From Alphaproteobacteria bacterium (GTDB lineage: Bacteria > Pseudomonadota > Alphaproteobacteria > Caulobacterales > Maricaulaceae): a DNA stretch of 64,000 nucleotides. A program made the translations under genes and the position numbers. Below are positions 5,809 through 17,926 of this stretch, in pieces; positions within the stretch are counted from its first letter, which is position 1; each line of letters opens with the position of its first letter. The stretch is from assembly GCA_016124675.1 (NCBI GenBank), contig WGNG01000006.1, positions 1 to 64,000 on the forward strand, written 5' to 3'. The notes under the pieces are model-generated. The model saw nothing but the letters and a program-made list of their open reading frames with translations. It was not told the DNA's origin and did not search any database.

Positions 5809-6156
5809 TCAGTCGCCTGGTAGATCACCACCAAGGGCCTTTTCGAGAGATGCGATCAGGCCGGGAAGATCGTCACGAACGGTCATCTCGACGATTGAGA
5901 TATTGATGCGGTTGTATCCGTGAATAAGGCGGTGACGCATGGCGATCGCCTGCGGGAAAGCGATGTCCGCAAACTGCACCTGCGTCTCGACTGGCACTGA
6001 ATTGGCCGCTTCGCCGATGATTTCGAGATACCGCTGCAGGGCGAGCATGCGAACGTCATCGCTTCGCTGCCAAGGGTGGGCTGGCTCGGCCGCTATCTCC
6101 ACCGCCCGGCGGGCATAATGGAGCATGTCCTTCAGCAGGGGCCGCGCCCGCTTCAT
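5809..6156 (-). CDS. hepT: HepT-like toxin, HEPN RNase (115 aa)
   Basis: All-helical HEPN protein of the DUF86/HepT family. The catalytic RX4HXY motif is R74-HRLI-H79-G-Y81. HepT toxins cleave RNA and are silenced when the partner MntA adds AMP to the motif tyrosine (established for type VII toxin-antitoxin systems). The start codon overlaps the stop of the upstream mntA by 4 bases (ATGA), which means translational coupling and a two-gene operon. Length is normal, and both genes look intact. Confidence 0.88.
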   Translation of the reverse strand: MKRARPLLKDMLHYARRAVEIAAEPAHPWQRSDDVRMLALQRYLEIIGEAANSVPVETQVQFADIAFPQAIAMRHRLIHGYNRINISIVEMTVRDDLPGLIASLEKALGGDLPGD

Positions 6157-6449
6157 ACCGTTACAAGTTCGCGCTCAATATCGTCCTTCATCCCCGGATG
6201 CAGACAGGTGCGCGGCACGGTGTCCACGCGAAGGCCCAGCCTGTCCGCCAGAAGCGCGTCCATATCAGCCAGCCGGAACAGGCTCGGTACAGTGTCAAAG
6301 TCCACCACAATATCCAGATCGCTGTCTGCCCTGTGGTCGCCGCGCACTCGCGAACCGAACACGGCCATCGCCGAAACGCCAAAGCGTTCGCGCAATTCGG
6401 GCTTCAAGGCCCGCAGACGATCCAGCAGTTCAGGGTCAAGCGCGCTCAT
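6153..6449 (-). CDS. mntA: MntA-like minimal nucleotidyltransferase antitoxin (98 aa)
   Basis: A minimal nucleotidyltransferase. The signature GSX10DXD is present as G32-S33 followed by D44-L-D46, with a third acidic residue (D50) in the next strand. In the characterised pair the enzyme AMPylates a HepT tyrosine to neutralise it. It is first in the operon, followed by hepT with an ATGA overlap, the usual order for this pair. The neighbours on both sides are unrelated chromosomal genes, so the pair is probably a mobile addition. Confidence 0.88.
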   Translation of the reverse strand: MSALDPELLDRLRALKPELRERFGVSAMAVFGSRVRGDHRADSDLDIVVDFDTVPSLFRLADMDALLADRLGLRVDTVPRTCLHPGMKDDIERELVTV

Positions 6450-6479: not shown

Positions 6480-8087
6480 TTACATCCTGAACACGCCAAA
6501 CCGCGTCGGCTCCACCGGGGCATTGAGCGCGGCTGAGAGAGCCAGCGCCAGTACGCGGCGGCTGTCGGCGGGGGCGATGACGCCGTCATCCCAGAGGCGG
6601 GCGGTGGAGTAGTAGGGCGAGCCTTCGGCTTCATAGGTCTCGCGGATCGGGGCCTTGAAGGCTTCCTCGTCTTCCTCGCTCCAGCTCTGGCCGCGCGCTT
6701 CCATGCCATCGCGCTTGACCGTGGCGAGCACGCTGGCGGCCTGGGCGCCGCCCATGACGGAGATGCGCGCATTGGGCCACATGAACAGGAAGCGCGGGCC
6801 GAAGGCGCGCCCGCACATGCCGTAATTGCCTGCCCCGTAGGAGCCGCCGATCACCAGTGTGATCTTGGGCACGCGCGCGCACGACACGGCGGTGACCAGC
6901 TTGGCGCCGTCCTTGGCGATGCCGCCGGCCTCATATTTGGAGCCGACCATGAAGCCGGTGATGTTCTGCAGGAACAGCAGCGGTATGCCGCGCTGGCAGC
7001 ACAGCTCGATGAAATGGGCGCCTTTGAGCGCGCTTTCACTGAACAGCACGCCATTATTGGCGATGATGCCCACCGGCATCCCGTGCAGGCGGGCAAAGCC
7101 GGTGACCAGCGTCTCGCCATAGAGCTTCTTGAACTCGTCAAACTCCGACCTGTCCACCAGACGCGCGATCACCTCGCGCACATCATAGGGCGTGCGCACG
7201 TCCGCCGGTATCACGCCCTCCAGCGTCGCCGGATCAAGCAGAGGCGGGCGCGGCTCGGTGATGTCCAGCGCGGGGCGCTTGGTGGTGTTGAGCCCCGCCA
7301 CGATGCGCCGGGCGATCTGCAGGGCGTGGTCATCATCGGCGGCGTAATGGTCCACCACGCCGGACTGGCGCGCATGCACGTCCGCGCCGCCGAGATCTTC
7401 CGCCGAGATCACCTCGCCGGTGGCGGCCTTCACCAGCGGCGGCCCGCCCAGGAAGATGGTGCCCTGATTGCGCACAATGATGGATTCGTCACTCATCGCC
7501 GGCACATAGGCGCCGCCTGCGGTGCACGAGCCCATCACCACGGCGATCTGGGGGATTCCTTCAGCCGACAGATTGGCCTGATTATAGAAAATGCGCCCGA
7601 AATGGTCGCGGTCGGGGAAAACCTCGGCCTGGTGGGGCAGGTTGGCGCCGCCGGAATCGACGAGATACACGCACGGCAGCCGGTTCTCGCGCGCGATCTC
7701 CTGCGCGCGCAAATGCTTCTTCACCGTCATGGGGTAATAGGTGCCGCCCTTCACCGTGGCGTCATTGCACACGATCATCACCTCGCGGCCCGACACCCGG
7801 CCAATGCCGGTGATCATGCCCGCCCCGTGAACATCGCCCTCATACAGGCCATGGGCCGCCAGCGGCGACAGCTCCAGAAACGCCGAACCCGGATCAAGCA
7901 GGCGCTGCACCCGGTCGCGCGACAAAAGCTTGCCGCGTTTGAGGTGCTTCTCGCGCGCGGCGTCCGATCCGCCCGGCGCGGCCTCAGCCATCTTGTCCCT
8001 CAGCTGCGCGACCAGCGCCCTCATCGCTGCGGCATTGGCCTCGAACACCGGCGCATTCGGATCAAGCTGTGTGGTCAGAACAGGCAT
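6480..8087 (-). CDS. mccB: Methylcrotonoyl-CoA carboxylase beta (carboxyltransferase) subunit (535 aa)
   Basis: Biotin-dependent carboxyltransferase that carboxylates 3-methylcrotonyl-CoA in leucine catabolism, working with the biotin-carrying MccA. The 535-residue length, the N-terminal [17 protein letters not shown] stretch, the glycine-rich oxyanion segments ([27 protein letters not shown]) and the C-terminal end RFGVFRM all match MccB rather than the propionyl-CoA enzyme. No mccA or isovaleryl-CoA dehydrogenase is on this strand within the window, so the rest of the pathway would lie elsewhere. ATG start with GGAGCC upstream. Confidence 0.92.
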
Positions 8088-8192
8088 GGCGGCTCCAGCG
8101 CATCTGGCCGTAAAGGGCGTGCGGTCTGATTAGCCCGCGCAAGGGACGCGGCGCAATGGCGCGGCGCGTTTGGCGGGGGAGGAGCCGCCAAG

Positions 8193-8879
8193 TCACTGGC
8201 GTTCCTGTGACTCCTCATTGGTCAGCACGATGAGGTCGTGGACGCCAAACCGGGGGTAATCCTCCGAATCCACAGTCCAGAAGAGCATCTCGCCGCCCTG
8301 AATGCGCTCGAGAATGTGCGGGGGCGGGCTTTTTACGATGTCGATATCCACGTTCAACCGGTCATAAAATTCGTAGAAGCGCAGGCTTTCGCGCAGCAGG
8401 CTACGCTCGGCCTCGGCGTCAAATTCACCGCTCGTCAGGCGCTCAAGCCGGACCGGCCCTCCATGCATCGCCACGATGGCACCTGGTGCAATGATTTTCG
8501 GGCTTCCCGCCATGAAGATGAATTGCGCGCAAGACGAAATGCACATCCCACCCGCGATGACCGCCACGCCAGCGTCTGCAATCGGTTCGGCGATGTCGAG
8601 GGCGACGCCAAGCGCGCCTCCCTCACTGATGATGTGAACAACCTCAACGCCGCTCAGCGGATCATCGCCCAGCGCCAGAAACGCCTCGCGCATACGCTCG
8701 TCTGTGCGTCCCGCCAAGCAGAGCACCTGTCCGTCCTTGACACGCTCCACCGGTCCGGGCCCCGCGTCTGCGCACGCGGCCTGAATCTCGAACACAAGGG
8801 TCTGGTCCCAGACAGTCTGGTCGCCTATCGCCGATACAGCGAGCGAGGTCAATAATGAAGCAATCGGCCACCAGATCAT
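8193..8879 (-). CDS. Periplasmic ClpP-fold protease-like protein, COG3904 type (228 aa)
   Basis: An N-terminal hydrophobic segment (about 1-18) looks like a signal peptide or anchor. The core follows the ClpP/crotonase pattern seen in COG3904-type periplasmic proteins: VHIISEGG (81-88), then GGMCISSCAQFIFMAG with candidate nucleophile Ser115/116, then MHGG with His139. ClpP itself aligns as AASMGS and HQP at these points. The gene starts 4 bases after the stop of a double-glycine-leader peptide gene with only a weak Shine-Dalgarno, so translation is probably coupled and it forms an operon with the two peptide genes. A role in maturing, degrading or giving immunity to those peptides is inference. 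A second member of this fold lies at 17177. Confidence 0.7.
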   Translation of the reverse strand: MIWWPIASLLTSLAVSAIGDQTVWDQTLVFEIQAACADAGPGPVERVKDGQVLCLAGRTDERMREAFLALGDDPLSGVEVVHIISEGGALGVALDIAEPIADAGVAVIAGGMCISSCAQFIFMAGSPKIIAPGAIVAMHGGPVRLERLTSGEFDAEAERSLLRESLRFYEFYDRLNVDIDIVKSPPPHILERIQGGEMLFWTVDSEDYPRFGVHDLIVLTNEESQERQ

Positions 8880-8883
8880 GCGG

Positions 8884-9066
8884 TTACTCGGGCGTACACC
8901 TGATTACGATTTCACCGAAATTATCCTCGTAATCAATGCTGTACCCTTCAGGACACGAACACTCCATCCAGGTTGTGCCATTCTCTGTTTTTGGAGTGCA
9001 GGTTGGCGCCGGGTTCGTGTCGCCGCCGCTCACCACGTCAATTTCAAATCCTGCCAGCTCTCGCAT
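8884..9066 (-). CDS. Double-glycine-leader secreted peptide with four cysteines (60 aa)
   Basis: The first 15 residues, MRELAGFEIDVVSGG, are a textbook bacteriocin-type double-glycine leader, expected to be cut after GG by a C39-type ABC exporter. The 45-residue core has four Cys: one near its start in PTCTPK, two in ECSCPEGY and one near the end in IRCTPE. The C-x-C-P-E-G-Y segment resembles an EGF-type turn, so two disulfides are likely. Strong ribosome-binding site GGAAGGAG, 6 bases from the ATG. It is second in a tandem pair with the gene at 9081 (14-base gap; the cores align as NPxPxCT..ENG..CxCP[DE]GY..C.P) and is followed by the ClpP-like gene. Confidence 0.75.
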   Translation of the reverse strand: MRELAGFEIDVVSGGDTNPAPTCTPKTENGTTWMECSCPEGYSIDYEDNFGEIVIRCTPE

Positions 9067-9080
9067 GGAATTCTCCTTCC

Positions 9081-9251
9081 TTAAACTGGGATGCATTGCA
9101 CGATCACGCGCCCGTCTCCGGTGGGGTAAGCGATCGGTACGTAACCGTCGGGACATGTGCAGGTTTGCTGCCCGTTCTCTTCGGTGCACTCAGGAGGTGG
9201 GTTCTCTCCACCAAACACCGAAGCAATCTCTGCATGAGTTAGCTGTCTAAT
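9081..9251 (-). CDS. Double-glycine-leader four-cysteine peptide, apparent ATT start (56 aa)
   Basis: The leader IRQLTHAEIASVFGG aligns without gaps to the 15-residue leaders MRELAGFEIDVVSGG and MRILSHGELKVVSGG elsewhere in this window. The 41-residue core carries four Cys in the same pattern as the next peptide (ECTEENG; TCTCPDGY; QCIPV). No ATG, GTG or TTG sits at the aligned start position: the codon there is ATT (9249-9251), preceded by an excellent Shine-Dalgarno GGAGGAG at proper spacing. A TTG four codons upstream overlaps that Shine-Dalgarno and is less likely. ATT initiation is known but rare (for example infC). A sequencing or mutational change from ATG is possible. First gene of the minus-strand cassette, about 120 bp after scpB. 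Confidence 0.6.
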   Translation of the reverse strand: MRQLTHAEIASVFGGENPPPECTEENGQQTCTCPDGYVPIAYPTGDGRVIVQCIPV

Positions 9252-9373
9252 TTGCTCCTCCAAAGAGTGTGGAGCACAACTTTGTGGCGCCAAATCGAGG
9301 CGGGCAAGCAGAAAACGATGCTCTGACCCGCATGAGATACAATTCGTACGCAAACGGCGTAGACTCCGCCCCG

Positions 9374-10153
9374 CTAATCCTCCTCCTCCACATCGAGGAA
9401 ATCGACATGGAAATCCGCGGCCTCCTCGTCGGAGAACAGGTCTTCCTCCTCGCCGGGCAGGATGCGGCCGGGTTCGGGGATCATGAAGTCCGGGGGCAGG
9501 CGGCTGGACAGGAGCCCGGCGGCTTTCAGGTCGCTGACGCCGGGCAGGTCGCTTAAGGACGCCAGGCCGAAATAGTCCAGGAACGCATCGGTCACGCCAT
9601 AGGTCACGGGCCGGCCCGGGCTGCGCCGGCGCCCGCGCAGGCGGATCCATTTCATTTCCAGAAGCTGGTCCAGCGTGCCGCGCGACACCGCCACGCCTCG
9701 AATATCCTCGATCTCGGCGCGGGTGACAGGCTGATGATAGGCGATGATGGACAGGGTTTCGAGCGCCGCTTGAGAGAGCTTGCGCGGCTCCTCGCGCTCG
9801 GTGCGCAGGAGGAAGGCGAGATCCGGCGCGGTCTGGAAGCGCCAGCGCCCGGCGACTTCCACAAGCTGGATGCCGGCCTGGGCGTATTTGGCCGTCAGCG
9901 CCGCGATCACCGCGCGCACATCGGCGCCGGCGGGCAGGCGGGCGGCCAGCGTCTCGATGTCCAGAGGCTCCACCGCTGCAAACAGCAGCGCCTCGGCCAT
10001 GCGCATCAGCTCAGCGTCATTATCCACGGCGAGGCGCACGCCCGGCGGGCCGGCATCGCCTCCGGCGCGTGTTTCGGCCTGGCTGCGCAGGGCGCGGATC
10101 GCCTCGGTGACCGGGTCGCGCTCAGGGCGCGCGCCGGTGGTGTCATCGCTCAT
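9374..10153 (-). CDS. scpB: Segregation and condensation protein B (259 aa)
   Basis: Kleisin-associated winged-helix subunit of the SMC-ScpAB condensin, which compacts and segregates the chromosome. Tandem winged-helix regions cover about residues 45-200, with the family hallmarks EALLFAA, LSIIAYHQPVTRAEIEDIRG and LEMKWIRLRGRRRSPGRPVTYG. The C-terminal 40 residues are acidic and disordered (EEEDLFSDEEAADFHVDF). The start overlaps the scpA stop by 4 bases. In related genomes tatABC commonly follows scpB; here the peptide cassette at 8193-9251 follows instead. Confidence 0.93.
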   Translation of the reverse strand: MSDDTTGARPERDPVTEAIRALRSQAETRAGGDAGPPGVRLAVDNDAELMRMAEALLFAAVEPLDIETLAARLPAGADVRAVIAALTAKYAQAGIQLVEVAGRWRFQTAPDLAFLLRTEREEPRKLSQAALETLSIIAYHQPVTRAEIEDIRGVAVSRGTLDQLLEMKWIRLRGRRRSPGRPVTYGVTDAFLDYFGLASLSDLPGVSDLKAAGLLSSRLPPDFMIPEPGRILPGEEEDLFSDEEAADFHVDFLDVEEED

Positions 10154-10980
10154 GCGCCCTCCTCGCGACGGGCGTCACGCTGGTCATCCCGGTGAGCCGG
10201 GCGCATCCAGAGCGGCGCGTAAACGCCGTCCTGGCGCAGGTGCGCCTCGCCGTCCTTGGTGATTTCCAGCGCCGCCAGCAGGCTCGACGCGGTGATGCTG
10301 GCGCCCGACGGCGCGTCCTCGCCCTGCCCGTCAGGCAGCAGGGCGTCAAACCGCTCCCAGCCGGTCAGCCGGCGGAGCACGCCGGTCAGCCGCTTGCGCG
10401 CCTGTTCCAGCGAGTACACGCGCGGCGCCTCGGGCTGATAGGTGGCGAAGGCGCCGCGCTCACGGCGCAGGGCGTAGGCTTTGAGAAGATCGTAGAGCTC
10501 GGCCTCATAGAGCGGCGTTCGGACGGAGCGCACGCCGGCAGGCTGACCACAAGGGAAGACATCGCGGCGCAAAAGCGCGCGGGCGTACAGGGCGCCGGAG
10601 GCAGCGCGCATCGCTTCGAGCCGGGCCAGGCGGAAGGCCAGCGCCGCCGCCAGCTCTTCAGGCTCCGGCCCGTCTTCTTCCGGGCGGGGTTTGGGCAACA
10701 GAAGGCGCGATTTGAGATAGGCGAGCCACGACGCCATCACCAGATATTCGGCCGCCAGGTCCAGCCGGCGCAGGCGCGCAGCGTTGACGAAGGCGAGATA
10801 CTGGTCGGCGAGTTCGAGGATGGAGATGGCGGTGAGGTCGATCTTGTTCTTGCGCGCCAGCGCCAGCAGCACGTGCAGCGGACCTTCCCAGCCACCGATA
10901 TCGAGCACCAGCGCCTCGCCCTCTCCGGCCTCGCGGGCGGCCTCGAAATCGTCCGCCATCTCGTCAAACAGCGAGGTCAT
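10150..10980 (-). CDS. scpA: Segregation and condensation protein A, kleisin (276 aa)
   Basis: Kleisin subunit bridging SMC heads. The N-terminal SMC-neck-binding region contains the family motif LDIGGWEGPLHVLLALARKN (about 26-45) and the segment KIDLTAISILELADQYLAF. A central helical part contains LVMASWLAYLKSRLLLP, and a C-terminal winged helix ends near residue 265. It overlaps both neighbours: the nagZ stop/scpA start share ATGA with the downstream gene order nagZ-scpA-scpB, so expression is coupled. Length is normal. Confidence 0.93.
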   Translation of the reverse strand: MTSLFDEMADDFEAAREAGEGEALVLDIGGWEGPLHVLLALARKNKIDLTAISILELADQYLAFVNAARLRRLDLAAEYLVMASWLAYLKSRLLLPKPRPEEDGPEPEELAAALAFRLARLEAMRAASGALYARALLRRDVFPCGQPAGVRSVRTPLYEAELYDLLKAYALRRERGAFATYQPEAPRVYSLEQARKRLTGVLRRLTGWERFDALLPDGQGEDAPSGASITASSLLAALEITKDGEAHLRQDGVYAPLWMRPAHRDDQRDARREEGA

Positions 10981-12005
10981 GGCGCCTGCAGCCCTGCCTC
11001 TTCAAACAGGCGCGCCAGCGCCTCCAGCCCGGCGCCCGGGTCAAAGCCCTGCGGTGACCGGCGCGCCGCCAGCGCCGCATCCGCGCGCCTGAGCGCGGCG
11101 TGATCGAGGCGCGGCGTGGCATTCGCGATCTCCACCATCTCGGCCATCACGCCGTTGCAGTGAATGACCATGTCACACCCTGCGCCCAGCGCACGCCGCG
11201 TGCGCGCGCGCAGCGAGCCCGACAGCGCCTTCATGGACAGATCATCGCTCATCAACAGGCCGTCAAAGCCGATATTGCCGCGGATGATGCGGGCGATCAC
11301 TTCGGACGAACACGTGGCGCAGTCATCGGCGTCGATCGCGCGGTAGACCACATGGGCGGTCATCGCCATCAGCGCGCCCTTGATGCCCCGGAAGGCGGCG
11401 AAGTCGGTCGCCGCCAGCGTTTCCTCGTCCGTATCCACTATCGGCAGGTCATGATGACTGTCAGCCTGCGCGCGGCCATGGCCGGGCAGATGCTTGATCA
11501 CGCCCAGCACGCCCTGATGCAGCAGGCCTTCCAGGGCCGCGCTCGCCATGGCCGCCACCGCCTGCGGATCGGCGTGAAACGCGCGGTCACCGATGACGTC
11601 ATGGGCGCCCTTGACCCGGATATCGGCGCACGGCGCGTAGTCGGCGTCGATGCCGACGGCGTAAAGCTCATGGGCGATGAGCTGGTGATTGATCCGCACC
11701 GCTTCCAGCGCCAGTTCCGGCGCCCGGTCCCACACCTGGCCGAAGCGCTCGGCTGGCGGCGCGTTGCGCCAGCTGGGCGCGCGCAGGCGCTGCACCCGGC
11801 CGCCCTCCTGGTCGACGAAGACCGGCACATCCCGGCCCATGCAGTCACGCAAGCTGTCGGTCAGCGCGCGCACCTGGCGGGGCTGGTCCACATTGCGCGC
11901 GAACAGGATGAAGCCCCAGGGATCGCAATCGCGAAAGAAGGCCTTCTCGTCCTTGCCGAGCGTCTCGCCCGCCAGGGCGAATGTCACCGCTGCCGCCCCG
12001 CTCAC
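10977..12005 (-). CDS. nagZ: Beta-N-acetylhexosaminidase, glycoside hydrolase family 3 (342 aa)
   Basis: Cytoplasmic enzyme of peptidoglycan recycling that removes GlcNAc from anhydro-muropeptides; its products can feed beta-lactamase induction in some bacteria. GH3 motifs: VDQEGGRVQRL (about 80-90), KHLPGHGRAQADSHHDLP (about 168-185, with the catalytic His-containing loop) and the nucleophile-bearing MSDDLSMKAL (about 243-252). I chose the GTG at 12005 because it forms a GTGA overlap with the stop of the SPOR gene and leaves the family-like start TFALAGETL. Extending upstream to 12053 would only add Ala/Pro-rich residues that overlap the SPOR gene. Confidence 0.92.
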   Translation of the reverse strand: MSGAAAVTFALAGETLGKDEKAFFRDCDPWGFILFARNVDQPRQVRALTDSLRDCMGRDVPVFVDQEGGRVQRLRAPSWRNAPPAERFGQVWDRAPELALEAVRINHQLIAHELYAVGIDADYAPCADIRVKGAHDVIGDRAFHADPQAVAAMASAALEGLLHQGVLGVIKHLPGHGRAQADSHHDLPIVDTDEETLAATDFAAFRGIKGALMAMTAHVVYRAIDADDCATCSSEVIARIIRGNIGFDGLLMSDDLSMKALSGSLRARTRRALGAGCDMVIHCNGVMAEMVEIANATPRLDHAALRRADAALAARRSPQGFDPGAGLEALARLFEEAGLQAP

Positions 12006-12826
12006 CGGCGCGCCACCAGGCAGGACTGGCCGCGCGCATCCAGCTGCGAGCAATAGGCCGCCGCATCCTCACGGGTCTCAAACCCGGCCACGCGCAGGCG
12101 GTGAAACACGCCGCGCTCGCCGAGATCGGCGCGCTGGATGTCCGGCGCCCGGCCCGAGGTGAGATCGCCATGGCGCGACACGAAGGCGAGCCAGCCCGCC
12201 TCGGCCTCCTCCAGCGCGCGATAGGCGCCGATCTGCACCACGAAAGCGCCCGATCCGGCCGCAGCGGGCGGCGGGGCGCGCAGCTCTGCTGGCGCGGCAG
12301 AGACGGCAGGCGTCTCGGCCGGCGGCGCAGGCCGGGTTTGCGGCAAGGCTTCGGGCTCGGGTTCCGGCTCGGGCTCACGCGCAGCGGGCGCGTCCAGGGC
12401 GTCGGTGTCGGCGGTCTCCACCTGCAGCGGCGGCATGCGCTCGGGCAGGGCCACAGGCTCTTCGGCGCCGGGACGGGCCGGCGCCGGCTCCGTCGCCGCC
12501 TCGTCCTCCGCCTCGCCGCGCTCGCCGTCGCGCGCGCGCAGATCAAAGGCGGTCAGGTCCTGATGCGGGGTCTGGAAGCCGCCGGGCTCCTCGGGCGCCA
12601 CGCGATAGGGCTGTGAATCAGCCTGTATGAGCGGGCTTTCATCGCGTTCGCGCATGCCCAGCTGGAAGGCGTTCCACACCACCGCCATGAACAGGGCGAA
12701 CACCACAGCGGCGGCCAGCAGCACCAGCCAGCCGCGCCGGTCCTGTTCGGCTTCGCGCGCGTCGAAGGTTTCAAATTCATCCGGCGGGGGCGCGTACGGC
12801 CCGCTTGCGGGTCTGTGTGGGCTCAT
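12002..12826 (-). CDS. SPOR-domain membrane protein (274 aa)
   Basis: Bitopic inner-membrane protein. A short cytoplasmic N-terminus is followed by a membrane segment (about 32-52, [20 protein letters not shown]), a long periplasmic Pro/Glu-rich linker (about 55-190) and a C-terminal SPOR domain (about 195-274, beginning FVVQIGAY). SPOR domains bind denuded glycan strands at the division septum. First gene of the operon SPOR-nagZ-scpA-scpB, which links cell-wall and chromosome functions. The low-complexity linker contains EPEPEPEPE-type runs. Confidence 0.88.
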
Positions 12827-12938
12827 GGGCGTCCCCGGGGCTGTGCCTTGGCGCGGGCGGCGCCTGATTCGCGCGCGCCGGCCGGCATCTCAGCATAACA
12901 AGACCGCACGGTGCGCGCGCCCCCCCAAGGGCGGCGCG

Positions 12939-13256
12939 TCAGCTGCGCAGCTGGGCGCGCGCCTCGTCGAGCAGCTGGTCCATCTTGGTGCGGATCACAT
13001 GCTCGGAATGGCTGACCCCCCGGGCGTCGAAGTCGGCGCGGATCTTGCGCATCACGTCGGCGTCGCCGGGCTCTGCCAGGTCAGCCTTCACCACCTCGGC
13101 GGCATAGGCGTCGGCGTCCGGCCCGCTCAGACCCATCTCGGCCGCCGCCCACAGACCCAGCAGCTTGTTGCGCCGCGCCTGCGCCCGGAACTCGGACGTC
13201 TGCTCATTGGCGAACCTGTTTTCAAAGCCTTTTTCGCGGTCGTCAAAGCTGGACAT
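12939..13256 (-). CDS. DUF1476 protein, F1-ATPase inhibitor zeta subunit (105 aa)
   Basis: All-helical protein of the DUF1476 family, known in Paracoccus and relatives as the zeta inhibitor of the F1Fo-ATP synthase. The N-terminus [15 protein letters not shown] is the conserved inhibitory segment. I chose the ATG at 13256 because a ribosome-binding site (GGAAGAGAG) precedes it and the family starts here. An upstream in-frame start at 13304 would add 16 unconserved residues. Divergent from purC. Confidence 0.88.
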
Positions 13257-13376
13257 CAAGCGCTCTCTTCCGGGTCTGGGCAGGTGCGGTACATCGCCCG
13301 TCATCGATATCGCGCCCCTGTGACGGAATCAATCGCGCGCGATGCGCAGGCCGATGCCCTCGCGCCCGCCCCCATC

Positions 13377-13406
13377 TTGCGGCGGCGCGTCATTCCAGAG
13401 TATGGT
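13377..13406 (+). promoter_or_regulatory. Possible purC promoter
   Basis: TTGCGG (13377-13382) and TATGGT (13401-13406) are separated by 18 bases, a weak sigma-70-like match. A transcript starting near 13412 would begin just before the hairpin at 13416-13442. Low confidence. Confidence 0.25.
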
Positions 13407-13415
13407 CCTCGTCTC

Positions 13416-13442
13416 AAACGGCCCGTGCATGACGGGCCGTTT
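13416..13442 (+). terminator. Terminator-like hairpin in the purC leader
   Basis: AAACGGCCCGT pairs perfectly with ACGGGCCGTTT around GCATG, followed by CTTGTTT. It has the shape of an intrinsic terminator on the plus strand, yet no gene ends upstream on that strand: the neighbour is the divergent DUF1476 gene. It lies about 75 bases before the purC ATG, so it may be an attenuator or a 5'-end stabilising hairpin. Confidence 0.5.
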
Positions 13443-13517
13443 CTTGTTTGCCGCAGGCAGGCCCGGCGTGTGCGCCCCGCCCCGCCTGCGACCCCCAGCG
13501 GAGTTGCGCTCTCACCC

Positions 13518-14273
13518 ATGTCCCGCCGCAAGAAACTCTACGAAGGCAAGGCCAAGATCCTCTATGAGGGGCCTGAACCCGGCACGCTGGTCCAGCACTT
13601 CAAGGACGACGCCACCGCGTTCAACAACAAGAAAAAGGCCGTGCTGGAGGGCAAGGGCGTCCTCAACAACCGGATCTCCGAGCACATCATGGAGAATCTC
13701 AACCGGATCGGCGTGCCCACCCATTTCATCCGCCGCCTGAACATGCGCGAACAGCTGGTGCGCGAGGTGGAGATCATTCCGCTGGAAGTCGTGGTGCGCA
13801 ATGTCGCCGCCGGTTCGATCTCCCAGCGCTTCGGCCTGCCCGAGGGCGAGCCTCTGCCGCGCACCATCGTGGAGTTCTATTTCAAGGACGATGCGCTGGG
13901 CGACCCGCTGGTGAGCGAGGAGCATATCGCCGCCTTCAACTGGGCGAGCCCCCAGGACATTGACGACATGATCGCGCTGGCCCTGCGGGTGAATGATTAC
14001 CTGTCCGGCCTGTTCACCGGCGCCCATATCCGCCTGGTGGACTTCAAGCTGGAGTTTGGCCGCGTCTATGACCAGAACGACATGGCGCGCATCATCCTGG
14101 CCGACGAGATCAGCCCGGACAGCTGCCGCCTGTGGGACATGGCCACGGGCGAGAAAATGGACAAGGACCGGTTCCGGCGCGATCTGGGCAATGTCACCGA
14201 GGCCTATGCCGAAGTGGCGCGCCGGCTCGGGATCATGAAGGAAAACACCAACGGCGACGAGGTCAATCCATGA
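13518..14273 (+). CDS. purC: Phosphoribosylaminoimidazole-succinocarboxamide synthase (251 aa)
   Basis: SAICAR synthetase: it joins CAIR and aspartate using ATP in de novo purine synthesis. Family motifs: [14 protein letters not shown] at the start, the [20 protein letters not shown] segment, [11 protein letters not shown] (about 93-103) and [10 protein letters not shown] (about 176-185). The N-terminus is standard from the ATG at 13518, although the frame is open far upstream. The last codon overlaps the purS start (ATGA), so the two are coupled. Confidence 0.95.
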
Positions 14274-14512
14274 AAGCGCGCGTGCACGTCTATCTCAAGC
14301 CCGGCGTTCTGGACCCCCAGGGTCAGGCGGTGGCCACGTCCCTGAAACATCTCGGCTTTGACGAGGTGGCGGCCGCCCGCCAGGGCAAGCTGATCGAGAT
14401 CGATCTCGACACCGCCGACGCCGAGGAAGCCCAGCGCCGCGTCGCCCAGATGTGCGACAAGCTCCTGGCCAACCCGGTCATCGAAACCTACGACATCGAG
14501 CTGAGCGCGTAA
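14270..14512 (+). CDS. purS: FGAM synthase subunit PurS (80 aa)
   Basis: Small subunit of the three-part formylglycinamide ribonucleotide amidotransferase (PurS-PurQ-PurL). Typical features: [18 protein letters not shown] at the start, a central [18 protein letters not shown] strand-helix and the end [11 protein letters not shown]. It overlaps purC by 4 bases. purQ and purL commonly follow directly in related genomes; here the next 696 bases carry no gene and the following gene is on the other strand. Confidence 0.93.
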
Positions 14513-14586
14513 GGGGGGGCGGGCCGCCACCGCCTCTCCTCATCCGGTGAGGGGCAGCCCGGCGAAGCCATACCTATCCCTGTTTT

Positions 14587-14614
14587 CCCGGAATGGGCGC
14601 AGCCCATATCCGGG
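14587..14614. repeat. Imperfect hairpin in the purS-downstream island
   Basis: CCCGGAATGGGC pairs with GCCCATATCCGGG around GCA, with a single bulged A. It is the first strong palindrome after purS (75 bases past the stop) and may terminate purCS transcription, although no T-run follows. Confidence 0.5.
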
Positions 14615-14764
14615 AGCCATCCCCATAAGACCCAACCGCCTCGACAGCGAAGAGGATCGGCAGATGGGTCCCGGGCCGGCTGCGCCGCCCGGGAAGGCAG
14701 GTGGGGTGTTTGATCCGGATACGTCCCCATCTCCCCGTCGCTCCTTGCTGGCCCATGTTCGCAA

Positions 14765-14851
14765 GCGTCGCAGCCTGTCAAGGACGACCGGGCGTCGCCC
14801 GGTCGCCGCATGCGGCGGGCCGAAGGGCCGTCCTTGACGGCCTGCGATCGC
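14765..14851. repeat. Cloverleaf-like branched palindrome
   Basis: A long outer stem (14765-14786 with 14829-14851, sharing GTCAAGGACG/CGTCCTTGAC plus GTCGCAG/CTGCGAT) encloses three adjacent hairpins: ACCGGGC-GTC-GCCCGGT (14787-14803), CGCCG-CATG-CGGCG (14804-14817) and GGCC-GAAG-GGCC (14818-14829). All junctions are nearly gapless. It is not a tRNA. It could be an RNA element or a transposase-mobilised extragenic palindrome. Confidence 0.55.
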
Positions 14852-15052
14852 CTTGCGTGATCCTCCAGCATGGAGCGATGGGGAGGATTGAGCCCCGGTG
14901 CTGTCGAGGCCGCAGCCCGCCACGGACACGGCCGAAACCAGACGCGATAGTCCTGTCCTCGCGCGGGAGTGGTGGCTAACGCGAAGCGTGAGAGCGAGTT
15001 GGGCCGCCCCCACACAGCCACTCAGGACCTGTCCGAAGCCTCCCCCCCCTCC

Positions 15053-15090
15053 GTCCGCTGCGCGGACACCTCCCCCGCAAGCGGGGGAGG
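15053..15090. repeat. Two adjacent hairpins, REP-like
   Basis: GTCCG-CTGCG-CGGAC (15053-15067) is followed at once by CCTCCCCCGC-AA-GCGGGGGAGG (15069-15090), a perfect 10-bp inverted repeat. The second shares its CCTCCCCCGC arm with the palindrome at 121-145 after lon. Confidence 0.55.
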
Positions 15091-15208
15091 ACAAGTGGGC
15101 ACAACCTCTCTTTCCAGCGAAGGAGCGGAGGTTGAGTGTCACCCCTGTCGGATCACTGGCAGTCGGCGCATTCCGAACAAGTTGAGACTTTCTTGCACCC
15201 CGCCCCCT

Positions 15209-16444
15209 TCATCCGCGCAATGGCTCAAGGAGCCACTGCACCAGGGACTGGCGCTCCAGGACGATTTCAGCGTCAAACGTCATCCCCGAGCGCAAGGCGT
15301 ATTCTGCGTCGAACGCTTCGACTTGCTGCGCGTCAAGCGTGACATATGCCCGGTAGGCCGCTTCCTGCAGCCCAAGCGGCGTGGGAATTTCCTCTGCGCG
15401 GTAGACCGTCGCCGAAACCGATTCGATTTCCCCTCTCGCCACCCCGTACCGGCGGTGCGGAAAGGCGCTGTAAAAGATGCGGACCTCCAATCCCGGTCGC
15501 ACCCGCGCCATGACACGCGAGGGTAGGTAGAGCTCACCCCGCAGTGCGCTTTCGTCTCCAACAAGAGTCAGGGCACGCTGTCCGGCCTGAATTGATCCTC
15601 CTTGGGTGACACCAAGCGCCGCGACCCGCCCGGCCTGGGGCGCGGTGACGAGCACTCCTCGGCGCGTTTGGATTTCGAGCAGATTGCGCTCCAGCTGCTC
15701 TCGGGTCTGGCGCGCTGCAAGCACGTTTTGTTCTGCATCCAGCGGCGCGTACCGCAGGCGCGCCGCGAACACTTCGCGGGCGCCTGCAAGATCAGCGACC
15801 TGGGCCTCCAGCGCATTGATGTGTTCCTGCTGGTCAAGCACAAGCAGTTGCCGCTCCTCCAGTCCACGCGCGGCGAGCCGGCCAGCTGCAGCAAGCGCTT
15901 GGCCGGCATCGTATTGGCGTCGCAACAGAAAGAGGCGCTCTCGGGCCGCCGCGCTGCGCCTTGTTATGGCTTCAATCTGTCGGTCGAGCGCATCGATCTG
16001 CGCGCGCATTTCACTGATCCGCTCTACAAGGGCGGCTTCCGCACTCCTAAGCCGGTCATCGATGAGCGCGATTTCGGTCGCAATCGATCCGCCATAAGCG
16101 ACTGAGAACTCCACCCCGTCCTCGGCACGCTGGTTGTTGAGTACAGTGAACAAGGGTTCGCCCGCCTCCACCCAAACCCCTTCTCTCACGGCCAAGCCGG
16201 ATACCACCCCTGATGACGTAGCGTGGACCGCAATCTCGCCAGATGTGAACTGCAGCCATCCATGCCCACGCTCTTTGCGCGCGTATTCAGTGAGCAGCAA
16301 AAACGCGCCACAGGCGCAAATAGCACTCATGATGAAAACGCAAAAGAGCGCCCAAGACACTGGGAGCCGTGCGATGGGCTCACCTGATACCTTCTGCTTA
16401 AACGCCTCGATCGCTTCTTGCCGGAACAGGGCTTCATCAAACAT
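15209..16444 (-). CDS. HlyD/CvaA-type membrane fusion protein (411 aa)
   Basis: Periplasmic adaptor of a type I secretion system. It has a short cytoplasmic N-terminus (LFRQEAIEAFKQKVSGEP, very like CvaA of the colicin V exporter), one membrane segment (about 28-50), a lipoyl-like half near 70-100 (SGVVSGLAVREGVWVEAGEPLF), a long coiled coil (about 120-255), a second lipoyl half (VLVTAPQAGRVAALGVTQGG, about 265-285) and a beta-barrel C-terminus. CvaA-type adaptors serve C39-peptidase ABC exporters that cut double-glycine leaders. No such ABC gene is next to it or in the window. It is divergent from the double-glycine protein gene at 16573, which supports a role in exporting that protein. Confidence 0.82.
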   Translation of the reverse strand: MFDEALFRQEAIEAFKQKVSGEPIARLPVSWALFCVFIMSAICACGAFLLLTEYARKERGHGWLQFTSGEIAVHATSSGVVSGLAVREGVWVEAGEPLFTVLNNQRAEDGVEFSVAYGGSIATEIALIDDRLRSAEAALVERISEMRAQIDALDRQIEAITRRSAAARERLFLLRRQYDAGQALAAAGRLAARGLEERQLLVLDQQEHINALEAQVADLAGAREVFAARLRYAPLDAEQNVLAARQTREQLERNLLEIQTRRGVLVTAPQAGRVAALGVTQGGSIQAGQRALTLVGDESALRGELYLPSRVMARVRPGLEVRIFYSAFPHRRYGVARGEIESVSATVYRAEEIPTPLGLQEAAYRAYVTLDAQQVEAFDAEYALRSGMTFDAEIVLERQSLVQWLLEPLRG

Positions 16445-16515
16445 GAATCGAACCGATCTTGCATGTCCTGATAAAGCTCTACCATCCCAGAACGCGAGTC
16501 AATAAAACTTTTAGT

Positions 16516-16545
16516 TTGACAGCGCGATGCGTCATACGGTGAAAT
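16516..16545 (+). promoter_or_regulatory. Possible promoter of the double-glycine protein gene
   Basis: TTGACA (16516-16521), a perfect -35 match, and TGAAAT (16540-16545) are spaced 18 bases apart, inside an AT-rich 128-bp gap between divergent genes. The start codon follows 27 bases after the -10. Confidence 0.4.
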
Positions 16546-16572
16546 GAAGCACCTCAAGATGGAGAGCTGGCA

Positions 16573-16995
16573 ATGAGAATTCTTTCACATGGTGAATTGA
16601 AGGTCGTTTCAGGTGGGACCCCGGACTGGCTTGATCAAATTGCGCAGGATCAGATGGCGGCAGATATGGCCGCCATTTTCGGACTGCCATCGTCCGGAAT
16701 TCCCGGCTTTGGCGGCGGCGGAAATCCATATGCAGAGGAAATGGCCGATGATCTAGCAGAAATTGATGACTATGATCAGCGAATGATGGACGCTATTGCT
16801 TGGTATCAAACAGAAGGCGCATGGTGGGATTACGACTCGCCAATCGGCAACAATGATGGAGACATTTACGATGAGGCTGCTTTTATATTTCGGAATGCAG
16901 CGGTCGCAATTGGCGTGATTCATCCTGTGCTTGGTATGTTCTACGATAAGCTTGCTGACGATATGGACAATTACGACCGCCTTTATGGCAACTGA
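16573..16995 (+). CDS. Double-glycine-leader secreted protein, acidic, cysteine-free (140 aa)
   Basis: The leader MRILSHGELKVVSGG (15 residues) matches the double-glycine consensus and the two peptide leaders at 8.9-9.3 kb. The mature part (about 125 residues) is strongly acidic, rich in Asp, Met, Trp and Tyr, and contains a Gly-rich segment, GIPGFGGGG (47-55), and a hydrophobic helix, NAAVAIGVIHPVLGMF (about 108-123). It has no Cys, unlike the other two peptides. It lies in a locally AT-richer stretch, with the CvaA-type adaptor on the other side and a ClpP-like lipoprotein downstream. Function unknown: a bacteriocin-like effector or signal are options. Confidence 0.7.
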   Translation: MRILSHGELKVVSGGTPDWLDQIAQDQMAADMAAIFGLPSSGIPGFGGGGNPYAEEMADDLAEIDDYDQRMMDAIAWYQTEGAWWDYDSPIGNNDGDIYDEAAFIFRNAAVAIGVIHPVLGMFYDKLADDMDNYDRLYGN

Positions 16996-17008
16996 TTTGT
17001 CTGTTGCG

Positions 17009-17033
17009 CCCCGCCGCGTTGTACGCGGCGGGG
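17009..17033 (+). terminator. Strong hairpin after the double-glycine protein gene
   Basis: CCCCGCCGCG pairs perfectly with CGCGGCGGGG around TTGTA, 13 bases past the stop codon. No T-run follows, so it may act as an mRNA 3'-end stabiliser that lets the peptide be expressed more than the downstream gene. Confidence 0.5.
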
Positions 17034-17176
17034 AAGACTGGACGCTTACCAACTTGCCGCATCGATTGTTCTTGGGTGGCGCCTCAGTGCTAATCTGTAC
17101 ACCTTGACCCTAAACTTTGCTTCCGTGAGTTGGATTGTCATACTGATTCCTTCCCCGCAAATGCATCGGAGACACT

Positions 17177-17926
17177 GTGAGGTCGCCATTTCTCCTGATC
17201 TGCGCCATCGCCCTTACCGGCGCCTGTTCGGCTGACACCGAATACCAAGTTCCCGAAGGGGCCGGCCTGGTCGAGGGCACGGTTGACCAGGCTTTCACCG
17301 ACCGCGTCTGGGAACTCGTAGAGGAGAACAAGGATTTAATAATTCGCTCACAAGGCGGCTTGAACAGTCGAAGCATCATTCTCGGCGAGATCCTGTCCAG
17401 GCTGTCAGTTGGCCTGAGCTTCCAGGACTACTGCCTGTCAGCCTGCGCCTCGTATCTGATCGCCACCCGGGCTGACACAGTGCTTGAACGCAATCTCCTG
17501 CTCGGTTTTCACGGCGACAGCCTCATGCACAGAGCCATCTTCGAGTCACTCAATACCGATGACAATCTGGCCCATTGCTATCAGCGGCTGGCCGACCGCC
17601 AGGCGGCGCTGTACGCCGCGAGTGGTCTGTCGACCGGGTTTTCTCAGGAAATGGCGCGGCGCCTCGGCGTCGTGGGGGCGCATCTGGTCGACCGCGAGGA
17701 CTGGCCGTGCCCGGAAGTGGTCTATGAGTTTGAGAACGACTGGTGGTTCCCCACCTCGCAACAGATCGAGGACCTCCTGAACAAACCACTCACCGAGCCG
17801 CTGTGCGCGGACGATCTCGCCTGCATGCGCCGCAAGCTGCGCAATCTGCGCCAGACCGGCCGCATCGTGATCGGCGATGATGTCTACTGGCTCGACAACG
17901 GTCGGCTGGCCGAAAGACTCGATTGA
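17177..17926 (+). CDS. ClpP-fold (COG3904-like) envelope protein, possible lipoprotein (249 aa)
   Basis: The N-terminus has a hydrophobic signal segment ending TGACSAD, a lipobox-like site with Cys17. The core keeps the ClpP/COG3904 order: LIIRSQGG (54-61), then DYCLSACASYLIA with candidate nucleophile Ser88 flanked by two Cys, then GFHGDS with His112. The region after residue 130 is specific to this protein. It is the same fold as the protein at 8193, and each sits directly downstream of double-glycine-leader peptide genes. Peptidase activity is unproven, and the triad acid cannot be placed by eye. Confidence 0.65.
   Translation: MRSPFLLICAIALTGACSADTEYQVPEGAGLVEGTVDQAFTDRVWELVEENKDLIIRSQGGLNSRSIILGEILSRLSVGLSFQDYCLSACASYLIATRADTVLERNLLLGFHGDSLMHRAIFESLNTDDNLAHCYQRLADRQAALYAASGLSTGFSQEMARRLGVVGAHLVDREDWPCPEVVYEFENDWWFPTSQQIEDLLNKPLTEPLCADDLACMRRKLRNLRQTGRIVIGDDVYWLDNGRLAERLD

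Follow-up and report, generated by a model that had tools for sequence, protein, structure and literature searches.

Double-glycine-leader peptides and ClpP-like proteins paired at two loci of a Maricaulaceae bacterium: candidate microcin-like cassettes

Inspection of a 64,000-nt stretch from an alphaproteobacterium of the family Maricaulaceae (GenBank assembly GCA_016124675.1, contig WGNG01000006.1, positions 1–64,000; hereafter the window) showed two loci in which an open reading frame (ORF) for a peptide with a double-glycine (GG) leader is followed by the gene for a ClpP-like protein. At locus 1, the peptide gene P1 ends 4 nt before the gene for CLP-A; at locus 2, P3 is separated from the gene for CLP-B by 181 nt, a double pairing already reported in the initial annotation of this DNA. 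The pairing recurs in other genomes of the family. We tentatively favour, with less than even confidence, a reading of the two loci as class-II-microcin-like cassettes in which an exported Ser-His hydrolase would take the place of the immunity gene and break down peptide that comes back in.

Leader peptides, their loci and a candidate exporter

Locus 1 is a cassette of ∼1.2 kb (cassette 1; 8168–9366) with P2 (9081–9251), P1 (8884–9066) and CLP-A (8193–8879), all on the minus strand; it is flanked by what we take to be scpB and a carboxyltransferase gene. P1 starts at an ATG with AAGGAG upstream and codes for a 15-residue leader (MRELAGFEIDVVSGG, core after the cut) and a 45-residue core with four cysteines. 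P2, whose 41-residue core also has four cysteines, is probably best read from the rare start codon ATT at 9251, which has a strong Shine-Dalgarno-like sequence (GGAGGAG) just upstream and gives a 15-residue leader; if an ATG, GTG or TTG were required, the alternative start would be the TTG at 9263, and the leader would have 19 residues. At locus 2, P3 (16573–16995, plus strand; ATG with GGAG upstream) codes for a 15-residue leader (MRILSHGELKVVSGG, core after the cut) and a 125-residue core, and is followed by CLP-B (17177–17926, plus strand). The three 15-residue GG leaders described initially are thus sound for P1 and P3, while that of P2 has this length only if the ATT start is used.

Aligned without gaps, the leaders of P1, P2 (from the ATT) and P3 end in GG. 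When likeness was compared with 500 shuffles, P1/P3 gave a z of 7.6 and P2/P3 a z of 7.0 (no shuffle as high in either case), and P1/P2 a z of 4.7 (two shuffles as high). P1 and P3 have hydrophobic residues at positions -4, -7 and -12, those given for C39 leaders in the figure legend of a review (PMC10885120). A 15-position leader model, A5, partly trained on ClpP-linked leaders and with these three in its training set, matched P1 with E 1.6e-4, P3 with E 2.6e-4 and P2 (G000:C4:9207–9251) with E 0.001. Since A5 held ClpP-linked leaders, a second model was made from 22 leaders of other loci, a training set that still has relatives of the ClpP-linked ones. In the window it scored P1 and P3 above 12 bits; with training on other loci, P1 reached 16.1 bits, P3 15.3 bits and P2 10.3 bits, the third score in the window. 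The cores of P1 and P2 are homologous (alignment z 12.6; none of 500 shuffles as high), whereas that of P3 does not match that of P1 (z -0.2); the core peptides, initially held to be unrelated, are so only in the latter comparison.

The genome has a C39-peptidase ATP-binding cassette (ABC) transporter (PF03412 at G000:C9:176341, E 1.4e-33), located on a separate contig from the window loci, and the same C9 locus contains an adaptor (L187) and two further leader matches (E 0.02 and 0.04). Since the C39 transporter of the genome lies on contig C9, P1–P3 would be exported in trans. Divergent from P3, the window also codes for a HlyD-type membrane fusion protein (15209–16444, minus strand; PF13437, E 2.7e-17), an export adaptor absent from the initial account; homologues of it adjoin leader loci in other genomes and the C39 locus of the same genome. 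At that C39 locus (L187; C9:165000–184999), the stretch 9580–11205 contains an extra short copy of the start of the C39 domain (9983–10228) and two GG-leader ORFs with glycine-/alanine-rich, bacteriocin-like cores. Among 28 typed core starts from the leader loci, four (L036/L087, L071 and L152) fit a loose motif that we take to be TonB-box-like, with a receptor-plug-like start after it; in L071, TEDEIVVTATR comes directly after the GG. Such core starts could serve cell entry via TonB-dependent receptors.

Cassette 1 is present or absent as a whole. In G094 and G090 it is missing, the flanks being 84.7–93.5% identical up to both ends and the aligned flank ends overlapping by 3 bp; in G093, G085 and G089, other DNA (∼2.1, ∼0.7 and ∼0.6 kb, respectively) lies at the site. 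The GC content of the cassette is 0.581, that of the 64-kb window 0.666. Segment 5788–6480 is likewise cleanly missing from G094, which suggests that this region collects small cassettes; this segment contains a gene pair (5809–6156 and 6153–6449) presumed to resemble an MNT/HEPN toxin-antitoxin unit. The region of locus 2 (adaptor, P3 and CLP-B) is variable too, since the alignments of five relatives (G094, G090, G093, G085 and G089) to the window stop at 14513–14523, just past a gene presumed to be purS. In G092, a leader ORF and two ClpP-like genes sit between this gene and the presumed purQ. GC content is lowest (0.515) in the 1-kb step that begins at ∼16250, and the ten lowest-GC 1-kb steps of the 64 kb all start within 8000–8750 or 15750–17000.

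The ClpP-like partner proteins

CLP-A has a hydrophobic N-terminus, an S-x-GG motif, the sequence CISSCA and H139. CLP-B has a hydrophobic N-terminus with a lipobox-like TGAC, the sequence CLSACA including S88, and H112. Their local alignment, centred on S-x-GG, C-x-S-x-CA and HG, gave a z of 6.8 (none of 500 shuffles as high). When 14 relatives were aligned (A2), S85, G87, G88, C113, S115, C117, A118 and H139 (CLP-A numbering) were invariant, giving an oxyanion-like S-x-GG, a nucleophile-like Ser with a Cys on either side, and a His; S-x-GG, Ser and His follow each other in this order in ClpP. The putative catalytic residues S88 and H112 of CLP-B were kept in all eight sequences of alignment A1, in which D212 was also invariant.

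A structure model of CLP-B, built from six sequences, had a mean predicted local distance difference test score (pLDDT) of 81.4. The 50 PDB matches listed for it were all ClpP entries (best E 2.4e-5), with template modelling (TM) scores of 0.30–0.41 by query and 0.39–0.57 by target. The model for CLP-A was too weak to use (pLDDT 58.7), and the ClpP fold attributed to both proteins at the outset is therefore predicted for CLP-B only. Neither protein matched Pfam at E 1 or better; NCBIfam returned a single weak match, of CLP-A to a ClpP-related head maturation protease (E 0.088), and a PDB sequence search with A2 gave one chance-level match (E 0.23). COG3904, the family to which CLP-A was initially likened, is mentioned in one listed paper, on Vibrio vulnificus genomes. 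CLP-B thus resembles ClpP (S14) in its predicted fold and in S-x-GG, Ser and His, and differs from it in its export-like N-terminus, the framing of the Ser by two Cys, an extra C-terminal region and the lack of a Pfam match; further, no Clp ATPase gene was noticed beside CLP-B. Most listed ClpP-like members have hydrophobic N-terminal stretches, several with a lipobox-like motif; judged by their sequences, these proteins look exported and would be catalytic.

The possibility that CLP-A and CLP-B are recent copies of each other was discarded: they were 17% identical in one alignment and lay far apart on a poorly resolved tree. In another genome, a small ORF (L087:8167–8478) has a GG-leader-like start and then a ClpP-like C-terminal part (E 5.5e-4), and looks as though the stretch between the leader and the ClpP-like end was lost.

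Recurrence of the pairing in the family

In a family sample of 137 genomes, CLP-A matches were present in 25 and CLP-B matches in 21. A5 found 94 leaders in these 137 genomes down to E ∼0.07, a cut-off of our choosing. For 56 of them a C39 peptidase match was at most 5 kb away, and for 17 a ClpP-like gene, six of the 17 being near both; 27 were near neither. Counted from the other side, a GG-leader ORF was present within 3 kb at 12 of the 38 family ClpP-like loci, a set that includes the doubtful L013 and L015, partial genes and a tandem in G092 (C26) counted twice, and omits the second gene at G092 C30 and the gene of G065. The leader of G065 (L169), one of the 27 near neither, is directly followed by a ClpP-like gene, with an adaptor-like ORF close by, and makes a thirteenth case; its ClpP-like gene escaped the CLP-A and CLP-B searches and was reached from the leader side.

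The second model gave 13 matches, spread over 11 of the 35 ClpP-like loci of the family that were covered (111 kb; duplicates, L002, L013 and L015 removed) and none in 203 kb of background, made up of fetched regions at least 4 kb from marked features. It also gave none in 29 class-level ClpP-like loci (96 kb), taken from 50 places in a 385-genome sample, where models made from the family may miss other leaders. The link between leaders and ClpP-like genes is real, and was seen only in this family; a general, class-wide link was rejected on the 0 of 29 class-level loci, within that same limit of the models. The enrichment of leader neighbours expected initially was thus found within the family (12 of 38 loci, G065 and the 13 matches) and not at class level, and the proposed functional link with peptide export finds support in this family and not among ClpP-like proteins at large. 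Hidden leaders before lone ClpP-like genes were also considered: a loose scan of 13 loci yielded by eye L024 alone, where a leader-like ORF (MKTINKDIPELSLEDMRQVTGG...) overlaps the ClpP start; it falls under the model threshold and was not counted.

The gene following the leader was classified for 71 distinct leader ORFs. These are the distinct peptides of the fetched loci, not all 94, and are enriched for ClpP-like loci, which were fetched first. The next co-directional partner was a histidine kinase in 26 cases and a ClpP-like protein in 14 (11 loci); six leader ORFs were followed by a small ORF that has a hydrophobic stretch, three by an aspartyl protease (two loci) and one by an adaptor; 17 had other partners and four were cut off. 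Classes were assigned by fixed priority (histidine kinase, ClpP-like, aspartyl protease, small membrane protein, adaptor) and the small membrane class by a hydropathy rule, small membrane proteins at ClpP loci not being counted; the G129 leader (L186), which has a partial ClpP-like gene upstream, was counted as small membrane. Where a ClpP-like gene follows the leader it lies on the same strand, often overlapping or after a short gap, and at three loci (G014, G110 and G128) a ClpP-like gene is ∼1.5–2 kb from a C39 exporter match. The order in G014 (L184) is adaptor, 95-amino acid (aa) hydrophobic ORF, ClpP-like, leader, leader and divergent C39 transporter. In Robiginitomaculum NORP227 (L087), of the order Maricaulales, a C39-type transporter, two leaders, a ClpP-like gene and a third leader are followed by an alpha/beta hydrolase, another two leaders, a PDZ-containing aspartyl protease and an adaptor, while G112 (L152) has a leader, an aspartyl protease with PDZ and an adaptor. 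G092 has ClpP-like tandems at two loci. The aspartyl proteases with PDZ (L152:8283–9575, L087:10030–11310 and L176:2113–3420; PF13650 and PF13180/PF17820) come directly after the leader, in the ClpP-like slot, in L152 and L087, and between two leader ORFs in L176.

A second class of GG-leader ORFs codes for tiny peptides (e.g. leader MRELTLEEIEVVTGG with the core MPIIIDF) whose cores mostly have 5–9 residues and whose genes have a histidine kinase gene directly after them. Members were found at L226–L244 (19 of the 20 loci L226–L245) and at L154, L155, L157, L158, L160, L161, L165 and L174; 20 C39-linked regions had been chosen by us from 50 leaders near C39 only. Some of the tiny precursors have three to five tandem copies of a unit (e.g. 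the RGVVLAE repeats of L174). The kinase domains were recognized by Pfam at four loci and elsewhere by similarity to two of those. Tiny GG peptides plus a histidine kinase look like a peptide-pheromone or quorum-sensing system in Gram-negatives.

Possible roles of the ClpP-like partner

Under the reading that we favour, the leaders of P1, P2 and P3 would be cut, and the peptides exported, by the C39-peptidase ABC transporter whose gene lies in another part of the genome, with the help of a HlyD-type adaptor, one copy of which lies beside P3. The gene after the peptide, in the slot of a microcin immunity gene, would provide an exported-looking ClpP-fold Ser-His hydrolase. This enzyme would cleave the producer's own, presumably antimicrobial, peptide on its re-entry into the periplasm and so protect the producer, each cassette bringing its own hydrolase. 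Type I channel export bypasses the periplasm, so that a periplasmic hydrolase would meet the peptide mainly on re-entry. This logic, together with the microcin-like gene order and the lone hydrolases of leaderless genomes, leads us to favour proteolytic self-protection; among finishing of cleavage, clearance of peptide and self-protection, the three roles put forward initially, gene position and lone copies make us lean towards the last. CLP-B relatives stand by themselves in G126 and G018, two genomes that gave neither a C39 match (E up to 0.001) nor a leader match (E up to 5), and there they look like orphan immunity genes.

Class II microcins of the MccV type share with the window loci a GG leader with C39 motif spacing, a genome that encodes a C39 ABC transporter and a HlyD-type adaptor, and a partner gene right after the peptide gene. 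The differences are that the partner here is ClpP-fold (as predicted for CLP-B) and not a small membrane protein, that the exporter lies outside the window loci, and that the host is an alphaproteobacterium. According to a published account, class II immunity genes typically adjoin the pre-microcin gene, the ORFs often overlapping; the known proteins have 51–216 aa and are predicted membrane proteins, conserved sequence features do not serve to locate microcin immunity genes, and a peptidase confers immunity to MccC (PMC10233263). Since the partner fails the class II immunity description (a small inner-membrane protein), the window loci are called microcin-like. At loci 1 and 2 the adjacent gene is the ClpP-like one (228 or 249 aa); among ORFs of 40–200 aa around both loci, only two have a hydrophobic 19-residue stretch (7930–8133, plus strand; 16753–17052, minus strand), and both are antisense over other genes. 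Small hydrophobic proteins in the slot at some sister loci, being of the usual immunity type, fit the slot reading. The S41 and ClpP folds are related, and the nisin resistance protein NSR confers resistance and is not known to be coupled to a peptide gene of its own. As described in part of PMC4698656, NSR is a membrane-associated S41 protease with a Ser-His dyad that degrades nisin; our candidates would resemble it as membrane-associated serine proteases that cut a bacteriocin, and differ from it in sitting in the peptide cassette and in having no S41 match in Pfam.

Several observations weigh against proteolytic self-protection. No leader was present within 3 kb at 26 of the 38 family ClpP-like loci, which agrees in part with what was named initially as evidence against a link, ClpP-like genes beside unrelated genes in close relatives; leaderless CLP-B relatives include G095 C214, G126, G059, G112 C32 and G018. 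Co-occurrence by genome was weak: leaders were present in 10 of 13 genomes of the leader-rich half of the tree versus 48 of 124 others (Fisher p 0.009), that half being weakly supported and including G065, found through its leader; the figures were four of nine genomes with other ClpP-like types (p 0.58) and six of nine with the leader-free subgroup (p 0.12). On a tree of 46 ClpP-like domains (34 family rows), whose deep branches are long and poorly resolved, leader linkage was not clustered: it required 10 changes versus 11.5 in shuffles for all 46 rows (56 of 300 as low) and 10 versus 10.6 when counted over the family rows only (130 of 300). With 26 leaderless loci and no clustering, the function of the ClpP-like protein may be broader. 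The partners also differ from class II immunity proteins in type and size, the leader-linked ClpP-like ORFs having mostly 228–335 aa (411 at most, with uncertain starts) versus 51–216 aa. In G014 and G095 the ClpP-like gene has a small hydrophobic ORF next to it, and immunity could therefore be the job of the protein which that ORF encodes. Further, the 14 sequences of A2 have no invariant acid residue, and a second, maturing cut would have good precedent in secreted serine proteases.

Such maturation is the main rival to self-protection, and we consider it rather unlikely. After the C39 cut, the exported ClpP-like hydrolase would make a second cut, for example of a short N-terminal stretch, and thereby activate the peptide. 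Some cores begin, by eye, with a short acidic stretch, and a second protease class, the aspartyl one, occupies the same slot. The second protease of cytolysin and lichenicidin has a different fold from ClpP, that of a subtilase. In these systems (CylB/CylA and LicT/LicP), according to part of the review cited above, a peptidase-containing ABC transporter removes a GG-type leader and an exported serine protease then acts (PMC10885120). Theirs are modified lanthipeptides of Gram-positive hosts, unlike the peptides here, beside which no modifying enzyme was noticed. Maturation is opposed by the persistence of CLP-B relatives in G126 and G018, by the many leader ORFs without such a protease after them, and by the fact that a Gram-negative type I peptide normally skips the periplasm.

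The ClpP-like protein might instead have a general envelope role, removing export intermediates that are misfolded or stuck, or other proteins of the periplasm, and have no specific peptide partner, merely often lying near peptide genes. Lone copies are indeed common (the 26 of 38 loci), a well-supported leader-free subgroup exists (L008, L011, L017, L019, L021 and L044), and the linkage is unclustered on the family tree; the scattered linkage fits cassette exchange with orphan copies and, equally, a protein of wider use that sometimes lies beside peptide genes. We judge a general role improbable, as leader ORFs and ClpP-like genes lie side by side in one orientation at loci that have diverged, and are present or missing together in cassette 1.

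More improbable still is non-catalytic immunity or a chaperone function, in which the ClpP fold would bind the peptide or its target without cutting. It would draw on the same gene-order evidence, on the missing invariant acid and on the fact that the evidence for an enzyme is the fold only. Invariant Ser, His and S-x-GG in 14 highly diverged sequences would, however, be unexpected without catalysis, and unrelated aspartyl proteases occupy the same slot. Coincidental neighbourhood, with which the 0 of 29 class-level loci would agree, has a negligible probability, being effectively refuted by the counts of the second leader model and by the 17 of 94 leaders within 5 kb of the 38 ClpP-like loci, for which a rough random estimate is 0.1 (genomes of ∼3 Mb).

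Proteolytic self-protection might also be modular: each cassette would bring an exported hydrolase that destroys the peptide on re-entry, an enzyme of ClpP fold or, at sister loci, a PDZ-containing aspartyl protease; peptides and hydrolases would be swapped, and lone hydrolase genes would give resistance to non-producers. This wider form is possible, and we regard it with some doubt. The peptide side, GG leader and C39 export, is known, while the ClpP-like partner in the slot appears to be new: among titles and abstract openings, mainly of non-subscription papers, no description of a ClpP-like partner of GG peptides was found. A review counts only 15 microcins, all from Enterobacteriaceae. A recognizable hydrolase beside GG-leader genes would make such systems searchable in Alphaproteobacteria and supply an enzyme-substrate pair open to direct testing, and a ClpP-fold hydrolase would join the known ways of maturing or neutralizing secreted peptides.

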